32,856 bases of DNA from a virus. The notes beneath the pieces were generated by a model, which made no database searches, was not told where the DNA came from, and saw only the letters and a program-made list of their open reading frames with translations. Made by a program: the position numbers and the translations under genes. The stretch is from positions 1-32,856 of the IMG/VR virus record IMGVR_UViG_3300050138_000561, one strand, 5' to 3'. Below are positions 5,343-16,728 of this stretch, piece after piece (the first letter of the stretch is position 1; the number at the start of each line of letters is the position of its first letter).

Positions 5343-6844
5343 TAGATGCCTTTTCTTTCTCCGGAGTTCGAGCCGAGCGTGACGCTCACGAGGTAGCAAA
5401 AAGTGTCCAAGAGGTCCAATCCGTCCGTCTCCTTGCTCCCGAGCCGGAAGTTTGAGACCTGCGAGATGAGATGGTTCGCCGAATGCCCTTTGTGTACCGT
5501 TACCTTGTCGAACGCTTCCTGCGTGATCTTGACTCCCTGGGCAATCACGTAGGGGCTGGCCATGATGGCCCGCTCGTCCTTACCCATCGCCGTCAGCTTC
5601 GAGTCGATTGCGTACGCCGGAGCGTGCTTCCCCTGCGCGCGCAGGTTTTCGGCCTGCTGGATGAGGACCGTGCCCGTCGCCTTGTCTTCGATGAACGCCC
5701 CCGCAACGCCCCGGCGCGCTCCGCATATCCGGGAGAGTTCCTCAAGCCGAACGTAGACATTCTCAAGCCAGCCCGCCTGCGCGGCGCCCTCGATCTGGAG
5801 TATGTCCCAGTCAATAATCAGCGTCGGCGTCGGTTTCGTGAGTGAGTTGTAGCTGAAATAGGTTACCGCCGTCGCGTTATGCTGCTTGCCGGACTTGATC
5901 GAGGTGTCGATCATGGCGCCGACCGTATCGCACCGATCGGGCATCGGTACCGGCTGGCCGTCGACCAAGAGATCGTCGATGTTGAAGAACGAGGCACCGC
6001 GCGGGCGGGGATCCTGCTGGAACAACGCGCCCCACACGTACTCGCCGACGTTGGCACGGATGCGCGCGAGCGCTTCCTCGTCCTGCCATGCCGGCCACAG
6101 GGCGGCGCCGAGCGGGCGACCGAGCGGATCGCTGAGTGAATCGCACAGCGCCGGCAACTTGAGAACGGTCCACTGGTCGCCACCCGCGTTCGCAGCTTGT
6201 AGGAGACGGCCGCCGAGATCGTCGGGGTGCCATCTCGTCATAATTAAAACGATCCATGCGCCCGGCTTCAACCGTGTGTAGAAGTCGGCTTGATACCAGT
6301 CCCATTGTGTCTGCCGTTTCGTTTCGGATTCCGCATCAGCTGCGCCGCGCAGCGGATCGTCGATCAGTCCACCGTCCGCACGCCGCCCGGTTATCGTGCC
6401 TCCAACACCGGCCGCACGATAAAATCCGCCGTTCGTCGTGCGCCAGCGTTGCACGTTTTCGCTTTGCAGCGTGTAGCCTAACGTGCTTGAATGCTGACGG
6501 ATGTAACTTTGAATGCGCCCGCTAAAATCTTCGGCCAGATCGCTCGTGTTACTGGCTCCAATGAGATCGAGGTTCGGGCGCTGCGCGAAGAACCACGCCG
6601 GGAACAGCATGGACGAGTACGTGCTTTTCGCGCTGCCAGGCGGCATTAAAACCATGAGCCGCTTGATCTCGCCGCGCGCAACCTTTTCGAGGTGTGATAA
6701 CAGAAGACGATGATGCCGCGCGGGCGTCTGGTCGTACGGGGCGAGCGCCTCGACAACCCAGTCAATCAGATTGTGACGAGCTTCGTCTTCGCGGAGCGAT
6801 AACTCAAGGGCGAGTTCGTCGTCCAGATCGGTGTACGCAATCAA
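5342..6844 (-). CDS. terL: Terminase large subunit
   Basis: 500 aa: the ATPase-nuclease motor that cuts concatemeric DNA and drives it through the portal. The Walker A-type loop is MPPGSAKST (residues 67-75; Ser-Ala-Lys in place of the usual Gly-Lys). Walker B with catalytic acids is GGLIDDP (158-164). The coupling motif is MTRWHPDDL (202-210). The C-terminal third is the RNase H-like nuclease (aspartates in MIDTSIKSG, in LIIDWD and in FIEDKATG). The start is TTG at 6844, overlapping the TGA of the small-subunit gene; no better start is nearby. The family is Terminase_6-like. Neighbours on both sides agree. Confidence 0.93.
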   Translation of the reverse strand: MIAYTDLDDELALELSLREDEARHNLIDWVVEALAPYDQTPARHHRLLLSHLEKVARGEIKRLMVLMPPGSAKSTYSSMLFPAWFFAQRPNLDLIGASNTSDLAEDFSGRIQSYIRQHSSTLGYTLQSENVQRWRTTNGGFYRAAGVGGTITGRRADGGLIDDPLRGAADAESETKRQTQWDWYQADFYTRLKPGAWIVLIMTRWHPDDLGGRLLQAANAGGDQWTVLKLPALCDSLSDPLGRPLGAALWPAWQDEEALARIRANVGEYVWGALFQQDPRPRGASFFNIDDLLVDGQPVPMPDRCDTVGAMIDTSIKSGKQHNATAVTYFSYNSLTKPTPTLIIDWDILQIEGAAQAGWLENVYVRLEELSRICGARRGVAGAFIEDKATGTVLIQQAENLRAQGKHAPAYAIDSKLTAMGKDERAIMASPYVIAQGVKITQEAFDKVTVHKGHSANHLISQVSNFRLGSKETDGLDLLDTFCYLVSVTLGSNSGERKGI

Positions 6845-7329
6845 GCGTCGCCCTTAGCAGCCTTCCGCCTCGCCCGAATCCGCGCAATCTCGGCCCGCTT
6901 TTCTTCAGGCGTCATCATCGCGAACTTATGGGTCATTTCCGTCACGGTCTTGGCGATCGGCATACCTTCGATCCGATTGATGAGGTGCGTCGCGGACGAC
7001 AGTTGGTTGCCGCTCACTTTCTTTCCCATCATCACGGCGTAATAGAATTGCAGTATTTCCTCGACCCAGCGCTCGTTCCGCGCCTGCCGTTCCTCGTTGA
7101 CGTGGCCTCGGCCAGGACCGCCTCGTTGAAGCGGGCGATCAGCGTCCTCCGCCGACGCGCCCTTCGCCGGTCCACCCCAGCCTTCGCCGCTCGCTTCGCC
7201 GCTGCCAGCTCCGTTGCCGCGCCGCGTTCCCGAGGTAGCGCCGCCGCGCTTTTTCTTGCCGCCGACTTTGGCCGCGCGCGCGCGCGGGATTTTGGCGCTC
7301 GGCTCGGATTCCTTACTCGATGGTGCCAT
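6841..7329 (-). CDS. Putative terminase small subunit (DUF5681-like)
   Basis: 162 aa. Residues 1-75 are a basic, Gly/Ser/Ala-rich low-complexity region (KVGGKKKRGG and similar). The C-terminal half is helical and includes NQLSSATHLINRIEGMPIAK, the kind of helix seen in DUF5681/small-terminase proteins next to TerL. It should recognise phage DNA and load the large subunit. The identification depends on position immediately before TerL (stop and start overlap) and on this segment. A well-defined DNA-binding domain is not obvious. Confidence 0.6.
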   Translation of the reverse strand: MAPSSKESEPSAKIPRARAAKVGGKKKRGGATSGTRRGNGAGSGEASGEGWGGPAKGASAEDADRPLQRGGPGRGHVNEERQARNERWVEEILQFYYAVMMGKKVSGNQLSSATHLINRIEGMPIAKTVTEMTHKFAMMTPEEKRAEIARIRARRKAAKGDA

Positions 7330-8303: not shown

Positions 8304-9080
8304 ATGACAGAACCAAACGACGTCCTCGTGCCACGCGCGAGCCCATTTCGATGGGACCCGGCTAAGGCTATCGAGGACCTACGCTCAAACGTCACGGCGG
8401 CGGCCGACGTGCTTCCTCCGACGTCCGTGGCCGGACGCGCGTCGGGGATACAGCTTCGCGCCGCCGCCGAAGCCGTCATCGCTCTCGTTCCCGGCATCGA
8501 TCCCCAGCCCAAAGCCGAGCCACTCGCGCTTCGACTCAGCATACAGAACTCGGTCCTTGCGAACGTCGCAGCGCTCGACGATTCCACGATCGCCAGTCTC
8601 TACGCGGAAAACCGCGCCGACAGTTCGGACATTCGCGATCGCCATGCGCAGGAGCTGGCGCCGTTCGCGCATTTGGAGAACGCGCTCACCATTGAGATCG
8701 AACGTCGCCTCAAGGAACGGCGCACCGATCCGGACTCGAAGGTCGCGATTCCGCACCCCCAACTCATCATCGAACTCGAACCGCAGTTCGGTTCGTACAT
8801 CTTCAACGTGGACGGATTACGTCGCGCGGCCGCGATGCTCGCACCCGAGGAAGCGAGGAAGCTCGTTCGGTACACGCCGGCGCACACGGATCCGGTCCCC
8901 GAGAAGTGGGAGCCGGGACCAACGGCGAGCATCAAGGCGATTCGCGATAAGTACCCGGGCTCCGATATTGCGAAGATCCTGGGCGAGTCGATGGACCGGC
9001 CGAGGGTCGGCGATCGCTTAACGATCAAGCCGCGCGAGGTCGCGCCGAAGAACGTGACTCCGACCGAGGAACTGGAATGA
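8304..9080 (+). CDS. Hypothetical protein, 258 aa, first early gene
   Basis: A soluble protein of mixed helix and strand. No catalytic motif or known family is evident. Notable stretches are a long charged helix (about 115-143, ending IEIERRLKERR) and a C-terminal region with WEPGPTASIKAIRDKYPGSD followed by LGESMDRPRVGDRL. The ATG at 8304 has no strong Shine-Dalgarno site. It heads the early operon and overlaps the next gene by ATGA. Confidence 0.6.
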   Translation: MTEPNDVLVPRASPFRWDPAKAIEDLRSNVTAAADVLPPTSVAGRASGIQLRAAAEAVIALVPGIDPQPKAEPLALRLSIQNSVLANVAALDDSTIASLYAENRADSSDIRDRHAQELAPFAHLENALTIEIERRLKERRTDPDSKVAIPHPQLIIELEPQFGSYIFNVDGLRRAAAMLAPEEARKLVRYTPAHTDPVPEKWEPGPTASIKAIRDKYPGSDIAKILGESMDRPRVGDRLTIKPREVAPKNVTPTEELE

Positions 9081-9639: not shown

Positions 9640-10026
9640 ATGGGCAGTCTGAACGATGCTCTCCCTCGCGAAAACGCCACCGCAAGCGCAGAACACGCCG
9701 TCAAGTCCGATCGAGGACTCTACAAGGCATTCTTTCTCGGCATCACCGCACCGTACCAATGGGTCCCGGCAGCGCTCGACGCATGGTATTCGAGCCTACC
9801 GACTCCGATCAAGGTTCCGTGCTTCGTGGTGATCCAGGACAACCGCTCAGGCACGGCGCTGAAGATCACGGACGTTCTGCCTCGCGCAAAGGGCGCAGCA
9901 ACCCCCGCCGCGGGGGCGGCTCCAGCGGAACGCGTGCCGTTCACTGAAGACGAGCCGTCGCCGGCCGAACGAGCACGCGCTGCCGTCGACGAGCTGTTCC
10001 CCGACGACTCGGAGCTGCCTTTTTAG
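9640..10026 (+). CDS. Putative DNA-metabolism protein with SSB-like acidic C-terminal tip, 128 aa
   Basis: A strong ribosome site (AAGGAA, 7-9 nt before ATG) suggests high expression. The body (residues 25-85) is compact with several beta-like stretches. A Pro/Ala-rich linker (about 85-108) is followed by an acidic tail ending DELFPDDSELPF. Bacterial SSB proteins end in an acidic tip with a terminal Pro-Phe (DDDIPF) that recruits repair enzymes. The architecture of small folded body, flexible linker and acidic LPF tip is the same here. I do not recognise a canonical OB fold, so this may be an SSB, a divergent ssDNA-binding protein or a mimic of the SSB tail. Confidence 0.5.
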   Translation: MGSLNDALPRENATASAEHAVKSDRGLYKAFFLGITAPYQWVPAALDAWYSSLPTPIKVPCFVVIQDNRSGTALKITDVLPRAKGAATPAAGAAPAERVPFTEDEPSPAERARAAVDELFPDDSELPF

Positions 10027-10475: not shown

Positions 10476-10687
10476 GTGGCGCTCTCGACCAGGCCGAAAG
10501 AATAGTGCGGGAGGCTTGCCCGTATATCTTCATCGTGCTATGCCGGCTCCATCAAGCATACGGCCCGTACAAAACATACCGCACTGCGCGCAAAGCGGCG
10601 AAGTGCTACGAACGGCACTCAGGCGAAGCCGTTGCGGTCATGCGCCTTCAGATCCCGATCACGCCTTGTAAGAGACACCCAGCGTGA
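10472..10687 (+). CDS. Hypothetical protein, 71 aa
   Basis: I start it at the ATG 10472, which overlaps the preceding TGA. The protein is basic (YKTYRTARKAAKCYERHSG) with an N-terminal helix. No family or motif is recognised. Coupling on both sides supports it. Confidence 0.5.
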   Translation: MSGALDQAERIVREACPYIFIVLCRLHQAYGPYKTYRTARKAAKCYERHSGEAVAVMRLQIPITPCKRHPA

Positions 10688-11208
10688 GCGCCCTCGTGAG
10701 AAATGATCGTAAGCCGTGCTACGGCGAAGAAGGACTTGCCAAGTACGGCATCAGTAACGCTGACGCTTGCGTTCGGGCCGCGATAGACTGTCTCTACGCG
10801 GTTAGCAAGCCAGCCCGTCAAAGGCCATCCATCAAAGAGGTCCGAGAGATACTAACGCGCCTCGGGATGAGCTTTAGAACAAGTGAGATCGGACGGGTGC
10901 TGCGCGAGGAGTTCCCTCGGCTACCAAGGCTAGGGCGCACCGTTGAGAAACCGCAACGTAAGGGCTGGCACATCGGCAGCCTCGTTCACGATCACGCGGG
11001 CGTCTACGCCATTTACGACGAGCAGGGTTTGCAGTACATAGGTTCCAGCGAGCGGCTAGGGGCGAGACTGTCGAGCCATCCGCACCTTCGATCCATGAAG
11101 AACGCATGGCTGAAGATTCGGTACACGCGGGTTCCGGGCGAGCACCTGGCGGCAGAGTTTCGGTTAATACGTCGCTTAAGGCCGCCTCTGAACGTGGCAC
11201 TCCTGTGA
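10684..11208 (+). CDS. GIY-YIG nuclease domain protein, 174 aa
   Basis: The C-terminal 70 residues are a GIY-YIG nuclease: GVY (106-108), YIG (118-120), Arg128 after a glycine, Glu158 as the metal ligand and Asn170 near the end. All catalytic positions are present. Residues 48-80 (SIKEVREILTRLGMSFRTSE onward) look like a small helical DNA-binding domain. The GTG start overlaps the previous stop. It lies directly upstream of the candidate origin and could be a replication/repair nuclease or a free-standing homing enzyme. The sequence does not decide which. Confidence 0.75.
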   Translation: MSALVRNDRKPCYGEEGLAKYGISNADACVRAAIDCLYAVSKPARQRPSIKEVREILTRLGMSFRTSEIGRVLREEFPRLPRLGRTVEKPQRKGWHIGSLVHDHAGVYAIYDEQGLQYIGSSERLGARLSSHPHLRSMKNAWLKIRYTRVPGEHLAAEFRLIRRLRPPLNVALL

Positions 11209-11395
11209 AGCCCTGTGCACAACCTGCGAGTAACCTGTGGACAACCACTGCCGGTTTCACTAGGCGGAAGTGCCGCCGCCGTTCTCCACACTACTCACAA
11301 TTCTATCCACAGGTTAATCACGCGCGCCATATAAAGAGGGCGGCGACTTATCCCCGTTACTCACCGCGTTATTACGATTACGAGTCTTTATATAT
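11209..11395 (+). other. Candidate replication origin: DnaA-box cluster plus AT-rich stretch
   Basis: This 187-bp gap has no gene. Nine-mers fitting TTNTNCACA occur at 11214-11222 (minus), 11236-11244 (minus, TTGTCCACA) and 11282-11290 (plus, TTCTCCACA). CTATCCACA at 11303-11311 is one base off the E. coli consensus TTATCCACA. The second and fourth share TCCACAGGTTA and form a perfect 10-bp inverted repeat (11231-11240 with 11307-11316). AT-rich DNA follows (11369-11398, TTATTACGATTACG and TTTATATATAT), as in a DNA-unwinding element. The next gene encodes a DnaA domain IV-like protein. The origin call is inference. An operator for that protein is the main alternative. Confidence 0.55.
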
Positions 11396-11830
11396 ATGAC
11401 TACGGGCAAAACCGCGGGCCACTTCGGTCTGTGGGCAACCACCTATTTCTCGGGCAAGAAGAAACCCCAGCCTCCGCCATCACGCCCAAAGGACGGCAAG
11501 CCGCCCACCGAGTTCGTCGTCGCTCACCTCGAAGGAATCTTCGGTATGCCGCTGACCGACATCATGCGCCGACGCGGGAACGGACGGCCACCGGATCGGC
11601 ATTCCCTCCAAGTCAAGAGCTACGCGATCTGGCTCGCAACCGAAGTGACCGCCGACTCGCTGACCGAAATCGGACTCGCCTTCGGATACAAGGACCACAC
11701 GACGGCAATGTACTTTCGCGACCGCGTGCGCAAGCAAATTAAGAGCGGCTACGATCGTGATCGGCTTGAGGCGGCCAAACTCACGATCCGCACTTCCTGG
11801 GAGCAATTTGTGAAGAACGGAGCATCATGA
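11396..11830 (+). CDS. DnaA domain IV-like DNA-binding protein, 144 aa, without AAA+ domain
   Basis: Residues about 38-135 match the C-terminal DNA-binding domain of DnaA: a helix ending DIMRRRGNGRPP, then SYAIWLATEVTADSLTEIGL, then the signature AFGYKDHTTAMYFRDRVRK (95-113; DnaA has GRDHTTV). That HTH binds DnaA boxes. The AAA+ ATPase and N-terminal domains are missing: residues 1-37 are a short basic, Pro-rich leader. It may act as an initiator, an origin-marking protein or a competitor of host DnaA. The ATG at 11396 lies at the end of a TATATAT run with no Shine-Dalgarno site, so translation may be leaderless or weak. Its own upstream gap holds DnaA-like boxes. Confidence 0.8.
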   Translation: MTTGKTAGHFGLWATTYFSGKKKPQPPPSRPKDGKPPTEFVVAHLEGIFGMPLTDIMRRRGNGRPPDRHSLQVKSYAIWLATEVTADSLTEIGLAFGYKDHTTAMYFRDRVRKQIKSGYDRDRLEAAKLTIRTSWEQFVKNGAS

Positions 11831-12105
11831 AATTCTTTTCGACGCAAACGCCGAGTGAATCAGCGGCATGGTTTCGCGAAGCTGCGAAACACTTTCGCAA
11901 TGTCCCGCACTATGCGGCTGCGTTTGAATTGGCGGCTGACATTAGGGAATGGGCCGTGAGTCGGCCAACGACGCACGCGGACGCAATGGAATCTTTGACC
12001 AAAATTATACTCGCGTTCGTCGAACGACTCGCGGCGCCGACAGTCACGGACGAGGAGTTCTTCGACTCGTTCGCAGGCATCACGGGTGAGACGGTTTCCG
12101 AATGA
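11827..12105 (+). CDS. Hypothetical protein, 92 aa
   Basis: A small all-helical acidic protein (SESAAWFREAAKHFRNVPHY, FELAADIREWAV). The start overlaps the stop of the DnaA-like gene and the end overlaps the RusA start. No family is recognised. The position suggests a replication or recombination accessory role. Confidence 0.55.
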   Translation: MKFFSTQTPSESAAWFREAAKHFRNVPHYAAAFELAADIREWAVSRPTTHADAMESLTKIILAFVERLAAPTVTDEEFFDSFAGITGETVSE

Positions 12106-12551
12106 GTATTCGTCTCGAAGTGTTCGGCGTCGCGCAACCGCAGGGATCGAAAACCGCGTTCGTGCGAAACGGGCGAGCCGTTCTCGTCGAAGGAAGGCGC
12201 GGAGCCGCGCGCGAGGCGTTCGCCGGTTGGCGCGCGTCAGTTGCGACGGCTGCCCGCGATTGGCAGGCGCAGCAGCACGCCCCGCTCCTTGACGGCCCGC
12301 TCGCGCTAAACATCGCGTTCTATCTGCCGCGGCCCAAGTCGCTGCCGAAGCGCGTTCTCTACCCGGCGACGCGCCCCGACCTCTCGAAGTTGATTCGGTG
12401 CGTGGAGGACGCGCTGACCGGCGTCGTGATCGTTGACGACGCTCGGATCGTATACCTCAGCGCGAGCAAGTATTTCGCGGTAGAAGGCCCGCCCCGCGCC
12501 GTCATCATGATCGATAAAGTCTTTACTTTAGAACCGAAGGAGCACCCGTGA
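12102..12551 (+). CDS. rusA: RusA-type Holliday junction resolvase
   Basis: 149 aa, close to the usual RusA length. It resolves four-way junctions made during phage recombination and replication as a dimer. The N-terminus has the typical strand and GxPxxQGSK-like start (VFGVAQPQGSKTAF). The catalytic region is RPDLSKLIRCVEDALTG (91-107) followed by IVDDARIVYLSASK. Asp93, Lys96, Asp104 and Asp112/113 fit the acidic/Lys site. One Asp of the usual DxD pair is Ser95 here. ATGA overlaps join it to both neighbours. Confidence 0.88.
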   Translation: MSIRLEVFGVAQPQGSKTAFVRNGRAVLVEGRRGAAREAFAGWRASVATAARDWQAQQHAPLLDGPLALNIAFYLPRPKSLPKRVLYPATRPDLSKLIRCVEDALTGVVIVDDARIVYLSASKYFAVEGPPRAVIMIDKVFTLEPKEHP

Positions 12552-13081: not shown

Positions 13082-13318
13082 CTAGGCGCGCGCGCGCCGA
13101 TCCGCCGCCCACGCGGCGCGCAGCTTCGCAAGCGGCGTCCGCGTCACGCGAGCCAGCACCGGCAACTGCTCCAACTTGGGAAGATTGTCGTTCGCCCCGG
13201 TCCCCCCGGAGCGCCAGCGTTGGGCCGTCCTGACCGTTACCCCGCACCGGCGAGCCAGAAGGGCGCTCGGGTAGGGGAGGAGGATGGCGGCGATCTTGGA
13301 GCCGGGTTTCTGGGCCAT
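13082..13318 (-). CDS. Cro/C1-type HTH regulator, 78 aa
   Basis: The only minus-strand gene in the early region. Residues 17-38 (PSALLARRCGVTVRTAQRWR) form a clear helix-turn-helix, followed by a helical dimer-like region (LEQLPVLARVTRTPLAKLRA). I start it at the ATG 13316-13318, giving MAQKPGSK. No Shine-Dalgarno site is seen, so it may be translated from a leaderless message. It diverges from the gene at 13399, with a short repeat at its start suggesting autoregulation. It is a candidate lysogeny or early repressor, but no integrase is present in the window. Confidence 0.65.
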   Translation of the reverse strand: MAQKPGSKIAAILLPYPSALLARRCGVTVRTAQRWRSGGTGANDNLPKLEQLPVLARVTRTPLAKLRAAWAADRRARA

Positions 13319-13333
13319 ACGACACAATACGAC
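13317..13333. promoter_or_regulatory. Possible operator: ATACGAC direct repeat at 10-bp spacing
   Basis: ATACGAC occurs at 13317-13323 and again at 13327-13333, one helical turn apart and covering the start codon of the divergent HTH regulator. Same-face direct repeats at a repressor start are typical of autoregulatory operators. Seven-base repeats can also be chance. Confidence 0.3.
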
Positions 13334-16214: not shown

Positions 16215-16396
16215 GGCACACCGTGTACGATACGGCCCTCGAAGCGAGGGACGGTGGAGAACGCCTCCCGCTCACCACCTACCGCCGGCGCAAACGCTCT
16301 TTCTCGGCGCGCGCACGCCGGATCCTGACCTCGAACGGGGCGCTCTGCGTGTACGCGATCGCGCTCTGGATCCTCGGCGAGCTCTGGCTCCAATGA
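16211..16396 (+). CDS. Small membrane-anchored protein, 61 aa
   Basis: The N-terminal two thirds are polar and very basic (YRRRKRSFSARARR), followed by one C-terminal transmembrane helix (LCVYAIALWILGELWL). This gives a tail-anchored, N-cytoplasmic topology by the positive-inside rule. Function is unknown. Confidence 0.5.
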   Translation: MRHTVYDTALEARDGGERLPLTTYRRRKRSFSARARRILTSNGALCVYAIALWILGELWLQ

Positions 16397-16728
16397 CTCG
16401 GCCGTTGATTGCGGATCGAAAGCGCGACTCGGAAGCGGCACGATGGCATCGCGAGGTGTTCGAAGCGCACGGCCGGGTCTGCCATTTTTGCCCGAAGAAC
16501 GCGACCGACGCGATGCACGTCATCCCACGAGCCTCGCTCGGGAAACTACGATACACGATGCCCAAAGAAAACGGTCGGCCGGGGTGCCGCGACTTCAAGT
16601 TCCCCGCAGACGGCATAACCGACACCGGGCGCATCCACAGCGCAAGCGCATGGAATAAAATCGGCGCGGACTTCATTGAGCGCATCGAAGCCGCCATCCA
16701 AGAGCCAGGCAGCGGGAGCAAAGAATGA
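16393..16728 (+). CDS. HNH-type endonuclease-like protein, 111 aa
   Basis: Residues 30-65 show a Cys pair (VCHFC), then TDAMHVIPR with His42 in the D-x-x-H position of an HNH motif. The third part is ENGRPGC. A C-terminal helix follows (WNKIGADFIERIEAAI). The order Cys-x2-Cys, D-x-x-H, N-x-R-P-x-C resembles HNH phage proteins of the NinG-like kind. The final catalytic His/Asn is not certain, so activity cannot be asserted. Confidence 0.6.
   Translation: MTRPLIADRKRDSEAARWHREVFEAHGRVCHFCPKNATDAMHVIPRASLGKLRYTMPKENGRPGCRDFKFPADGITDTGRIHSASAWNKIGADFIERIEAAIQEPGSGSKE

Follow-up and report, generated by a model that had tools for sequence, protein, structure and literature searches.

Does a phage that encodes a bare DnaA domain IV beside a cluster of DnaA-box-like sites use the pair to mark its own replication origin, and does it thereby help, replace or exclude host DnaA? 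We addressed this question in IMG/VR virus record IMGVR_UViG_3300050138_000561, whose full 32,856 nt, read on one strand, make up the window. The window is fragmentary, ~63% as long as its syntenic relative G001 (IMGVR_UViG_3300037155_000078, IMG/VR, 51.7 kb), which a 127-bp terminal direct repeat indicates to be a complete genome. Late genes (terminase, portal, MuF-like, tail, baseplate) occupy the minus strand at both ends of the window, and early genes the plus strand from 8.3 to 20.7 kb. Judging from the sequence comparisons below, we put at about even chances that the array of boxes in this early region (~190 bp) is a DnaA-box phage origin, or the core of one, marked by the phage DnaA domain IV protein and working via host DnaA and DnaB.

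We first consider the protein, which is 144 aa long and encoded at 11,396–11,830 (+). Pfam Bac_DnaA_C (PF08299; curated cut-off 31.5 bits) matched it at 33.4 bits and its G001 counterpart, 72% identical, at 39.2 bits. This was the sole domain found, and no Pfam AAA+ model (ATPase domain III) matched, in agreement with the first-pass annotation, which had described a DHTT helix in the absence of AAA+. When a profile built from the two sequences was compared with the PDB, significant E-values were obtained for DnaA chains only, with domain IV of E. coli (1j1v) ranking first (1.1e-5) and the Aquifex (2hcb) and M. tuberculosis (3pvp) chains also matched. An AlphaFold model of low confidence (pLDDT 51.5) had a helix pattern that fits six helices, and its top three Foldseek matches were all DnaA, none of them reaching E 0.001: 3pvp (M. 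tuberculosis DnaA-DBD with box DNA, probability 1.00), 1j1v and 8btg. The phage protein has the D-H-T-T helix in common with bacterial DnaA domain IV and differs from full bacterial DnaA in lacking domains I–III and in its longer minor-groove loop. Substitutions between window and G001 show purifying selection on the gene (dN/dS 0.24, dS 0.85).

Base-contact residues of E. coli DnaA are R399, P423, 432–435 and 438–439 (PMC5043019). In both phage proteins the recognition helix K/R-D-H-T-T-[A/V]-M-Y matches that of M. tuberculosis DnaA, G001 being identical to it across the seven residues DHTTVMY. D433–T435 are kept, the R432 position is K or R and the P423 position T or M; at H439 both phages have Y, as does M. 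tuberculosis DnaA. Both phages have a minor-groove loop that exceeds those of host DnaA and of other aligned phage domain IV proteins by five residues. Because of this insertion the equivalent of E. coli R399, which sits in a KRR motif, cannot be placed; window Q72 corresponds to E. coli R405. These residues suggest DnaA-like reading of the core CCAC(A) and possibly another mode of recognition for the 5′ part of the box, in keeping with the variability of the TTN half in the phage boxes.

The gap upstream of the gene (11,209–11,395) holds the candidate binding sites. Box 1 (TTGTGCACA, 11,214–11,222) and box 2 (TTGTCCACA, 11,236–11,244) lie on the minus strand as a direct repeat with 22-bp spacing, and box 3 (TTCTCCACA, 11,282–11,290) and box 4 (CTATCCACA, 11,303–11,311, followed by GG) lie on the plus strand 21 bp apart. 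Box 3 is joined by a head-to-tail half-box, CTACTCACA (unit 11,282–11,299), as is a degenerate box 5 (TTATCCCCG, 11,348–11,356, +) by TTACTCACC (unit 11,348–11,365), so that sites 3 and 5 form a 17-bp repeat 66 bp apart. Both TTGTCCACA and TTCTCCACA fit the actinobacterial consensus TT(G/C)TCCACA. The three plus one boxes that had been claimed within 100 bp are present where they were placed: boxes 1–4 are four DnaA-box-like 9-mers inside 98 bp (11,214–11,311), and the whole window has only seven sites of their quality. The 10-bp inverted repeat reported to include two of them is equally real (AACCTGTGGA at 11,232–11,241, TCCACAGGTT at 11,306–11,315) and lies within 14-nt arms at 93%.

Single boxes depart from TTATCCACA, and the 17-bp repeat alone arose in 20 of 100 shuffles and is therefore not rare by itself, as would be expected if the sites were chance look-alikes in GC-rich DNA. 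Four sites in 100 bp, however, occurred in none of 400 dinucleotide-preserving shuffles, and the array is conserved in a second, diverged genome. The box cluster exceeds chance, and we regard an artefact as very improbable. The 22-bp spacing of the box pair was discarded as a signature: an IMG/VR scan for it returned five other contigs, none with a DnaA domain IV gene, so it is not diagnostic.

The diverged genome is G001, where the array stands directly before the gene at a similar distance. Alignment of the two gaps required 11- and 22-base indels, and because these are not multiples of three we consider the gap noncoding. Extended box positions were 84% identical between the phages versus 54% for the remainder of the gap, and of 186 circular shifts of the box mask one alone matched the observed conservation. 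Set against a synonymous-site identity of ~49% in the domain IV gene, these values show constraint at the box positions and near-neutral drift in the rest of the gap. Window and G001 have one architecture: two minus-strand boxes 22 bp apart; a plus-strand box carrying a half-box head to tail; after another 21 bp, a TCCACAGG box; and, ahead of an AT-rich stretch, a second such box/half-box repeat. Box 1 has its G001 equivalent at the matching place (TGTTCACA), box 2 falls within the invariant block TAACCTGTGGACAACC, the box 3 unit corresponds to TTGTCCACTTTACTCACA, and box 5 with its half-box to TTATCCACT and TTGCTCACC. G001 has extra boxes, one of them a perfect TTATCCACA. The window gene starts with ATG; since no ATG, GTG or TTG stands there in G001, the start of that copy is uncertain, although its N-terminal residues are conserved. 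Whether relatives keep boxes and gene together had been proposed as a check, and G001, the sole relative with the protein, does so, in the same order and with boxes better conserved than the gap.

AT-rich DNA had also been described after the boxes, and 30 bp at 11,368–11,397 are indeed 77% AT; among all 30-bp segments of the record, 0.009% are as AT-rich. On sequence composition only, we treat this stretch as a candidate unwinding element. The corresponding G001 stretch ranks in the top 0.2% for AT, and in both phages the element adjoins the last tandem site.

If the array is an origin, the 144-aa protein would be the phage's own factor binding its boxes. With DHTT kept and the AAA+ domain absent, this protein cannot form an ATP-dependent melting filament, and alone it would mark and bend the array. 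It would occupy the sites jointly with host DnaA, the 21–22 bp spacing putting them on one helical face and the tandem half-boxes leading toward the AT-rich stretch. Host DnaA would melt the DNA at 11,368–11,397 and then load host DnaB. The sequences show gene and array, their joint conservation and constraint, and no recognisable phage helicase; that the boxes are bound, that host DnaA cooperates, that the DNA melts and that a helicase is loaded are steps that we infer. The P1 oriR and pSC101 origins likewise place initiator repeats, DnaA boxes and AT-rich DNA next to their initiator gene. They rely on a dedicated Rep initiator with iterons, whereas here the putative initiator would itself be the domain IV protein. 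Iteron-like repeats (CCTGTGGACAGGGG) were seen separately at ~5375–5480 of record L104, within the gene for a 302-aa replication-type protein that lies beside a ParA-like ORF.

GC skew was set aside as origin evidence. The cumulative minimum, at 13.2 kb in the window and 14.9 kb in G001 (1.2–1.9 kb from the arrays), is suggestive, but third-position skew of same-strand genes, with no sign change at the array in the window and a weak difference in G001, does not confirm it.

The position of the array, ending ~30 bp before the start codon, would be ideal for autoregulation, and it raises the strongest rival to the origin, namely an operator through whose boxes the domain IV protein or host DnaA represses or activates an early promoter, replication starting elsewhere from an unrecognised initiator. 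DnaA itself acts as a transcription factor, and both phages keep the sites in front of the gene. We nevertheless hold an operator in place of an origin to be rather unlikely: no sigma70-type promoter was found in the gap of the window or of G001, no phage initiator was recognised, and the ~7 sites across roughly 150–180 bp, tandem half-boxes included, exceed the needs of a simple operator. Many plasmid replicons combine an origin with an autoregulatory operator, and both functions could hold here at once.

We then evaluated how far gene and array occur together. No DnaA domain IV gene was found in 77 other related viral records (sets of 12, 26 and 40, in which the sole match was G001 itself), many of which are fragments, so that not all absences are firm. 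Profile scans of IMG/VR with the 144-aa protein and with a 258-aa early protein returned G001 only, a GTDB scan with the 144-aa protein found no relatives, and plasmid and phage searches yielded only real DnaA or distant domain IV matches. Box clusters under the strict definition were found neither in related loci L109–L202 nor in G012, a phage with 68% TerL identity that lacks the domain IV gene; relaxing the definition gave 3–4 weak sites in 200 bp in two more distant records.

This joint distribution bears on the idea that the array is a sink for host DnaA, or an origin used by host DnaA only, and that the domain IV gene is an unrelated DNA-binding regulator adjacent by accident. Arrays do occur elsewhere: in L102 (~900–1230) and L107 (~9680–10010), both from IMG/VR, ~17 DnaA-box-like sites fill ~330 bp, and a terminase-like gene follows after a few hundred bases; neither record has a PF08299 match. 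Gene and array are, however, both present in two phages and both absent from the related records searched, and the intact DHTT[A/V]MY helix leads us to expect box binding by the phage protein. An accidental pairing is thus decidedly improbable.

A DnaA-related protein may also act on the host. Work by Frandi and Collier from 2020 is said to show that HdaB of Caulobacter, a stand-alone DnaA domain IV-like protein, acts on RIDA. HdaB resembles the phage protein in standing alone and differs in being chromosomal, and we know of no box array reported next to it. A possibly HdaB-like DNA-binding protein of MW462191 (L077) has DRST in place of DHTT. That record (MW462191.1) is filed as phage and looks chromosomal, with metabolic genes; L027 (CAKLQH020000026.1), also filed as phage, looks chromosomal as well, with rpmH-dnaA-dnaN-recF-gyrB.

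By analogy, the phage protein might bind host oriC boxes and block or re-time initiation in the manner of HdaB or of a DnaA inhibitor, leaving the array as a decoy or autoregulatory readout. Phage and prophage proteins acting on host DnaA exist: YfdR binds domain I and lambda P binds domain III (PMC4776307). HdaB is called a DnaA-related protein that stimulates initiation in the title of a reference in PMC7561715. A pure anti-host factor would have no need of an array selectively maintained beside its gene, and related phages without the gene also lack such an array. We consider host interference improbable, if less so than an accidental pairing.

We next compared the pair with other phages. 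At least eight deposited phages encode a stand-alone DnaA domain IV (C72C1, RHph_N28_2, RHph_TM3_3_3, ppBeUSDA76-2, ppBjS10J-1, Mae-JY35, ctOK67 and ctNMl277), and most of these genes belong to replication modules, with DUF1376, replisome organizer, SSB, RusA or GIY-YIG genes as neighbours, a setting that favours the origin reading. Their proteins are short like that of the window, but only marginally similar to it in sequence. No box cluster lay within 1 kb of the gene in any of the other cases examined. This counts against an origin, as does the occurrence of the pair in two known phages only. The protein type is already known from annotation, and the pairing of gene and array is the particular feature here. 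We found no report of the role of these recurrent genes. Window and G001 are the one case found of a DnaA domain IV gene with likely binding sites, measurable selection and no recognised replication enzymes. With one protein and one 190-bp fragment, whether the phage helps, replaces or excludes host DnaA becomes directly testable.

No helicase, primase, polymerase, loader or initiator was recognised in the early regions of the window and G001 or among the scanned ORFs of the rest of G001; an initiator could hide in unannotated ORFs such as 8,304–9,080. Both phages seem to need host replication machinery. G012, which has neither gene nor array, is the complementary case, for it encodes a DnaB-type helicase (8e-35). 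The missing helicase is nevertheless weak evidence, because such a helicase is missing from most related phages too: one was recognisable in only 4 of 37 related records. This count weakened the argument that DnaA is needed because there is no helicase, which we dropped as a strong one. Matches to phrog_16 (“helicase”) proved to be methyltransferase proteins, and two members matched phrog_864 (“primase”), presumably two C5-methylase ORFs. Searches of the window, G001 and G012 turned up no tyrosine integrase. Upstream of its terminase, G012 (L024) encodes at 6007–7245 a protein in which ParB_N and N6_N4 methyltransferase domains seem to be joined, each model matching once among the scanned G012 ORFs.

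Among TerL relatives in GTDB genomes, 15 of 20 were labelled Rhodospirillales, Acetobacteraceae or Acidocella (45–54% identity), and the host is probably an alphaproteobacterium. Each host genome searched had one PF08299 match, in a DnaA-sized frame where the frame was complete. A more far-reaching version of the origin reading, itself rather less likely than not, would make the pair a viral mimic of oriC, in which a domain-IV-only DnaA whose minor-groove loop is altered serves as a dedicated origin marker and directs host ATP-DnaA and DnaB toward the viral array. DNA recognition would then be supplied by the virus and the motor by the host, a division of labour that, to our knowledge, has been described for no replicon.

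GIY-YIG and RusA genes had been named as flanking the module. The RusA-type Holliday junction resolvase at 12,102–12,551 (+) is solid (PF05866, 4.4e-13), but is separated from the domain IV gene by a 92-aa ORF of no known function and no G001 match (11,827–12,105, +), which overlaps the gene's end by 4 bp. The GIY-YIG-like endonuclease at 10,684–11,208 (+) falls below the Pfam cut-off (PF01541, 0.0015, 19.2 versus 22.6 bits) with PHROG support (phrog_16880 “endonuclease”, 1.3e-4). We rejected both as module parts, neither lying beside the G001 gene; a PHROG-190-type Holliday-junction resolvase is found just downstream there. A small protein at 9,640–10,026 (+), without family match, has by sequence a tentatively SSB-like acidic tail (...DDSELPF), and a G001 small protein at a similar position has a different one (...DDDPDSIPF). 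SSB identity was not retained for either, the acidic tip being its sole support and the fold search uninformative.

Further from the array, an 81-aa HTH repressor-like protein encoded at 13,082–13,327 (−) of the window is 97.5% identical to one at 16,356–16,601 (−) of L021. Most genes shared by these two phages are ~60–79% identical, which suggests recent exchange. Among the late genes, the MuF/gp7-like head protein at 842–2980 (−) has ~711 aa versus 318 aa in G001. Its insertion, which opens with CFPGSTRVPL... and closes with ...GIISHN ahead of a C, resembles an intein, here within a minor head protein.
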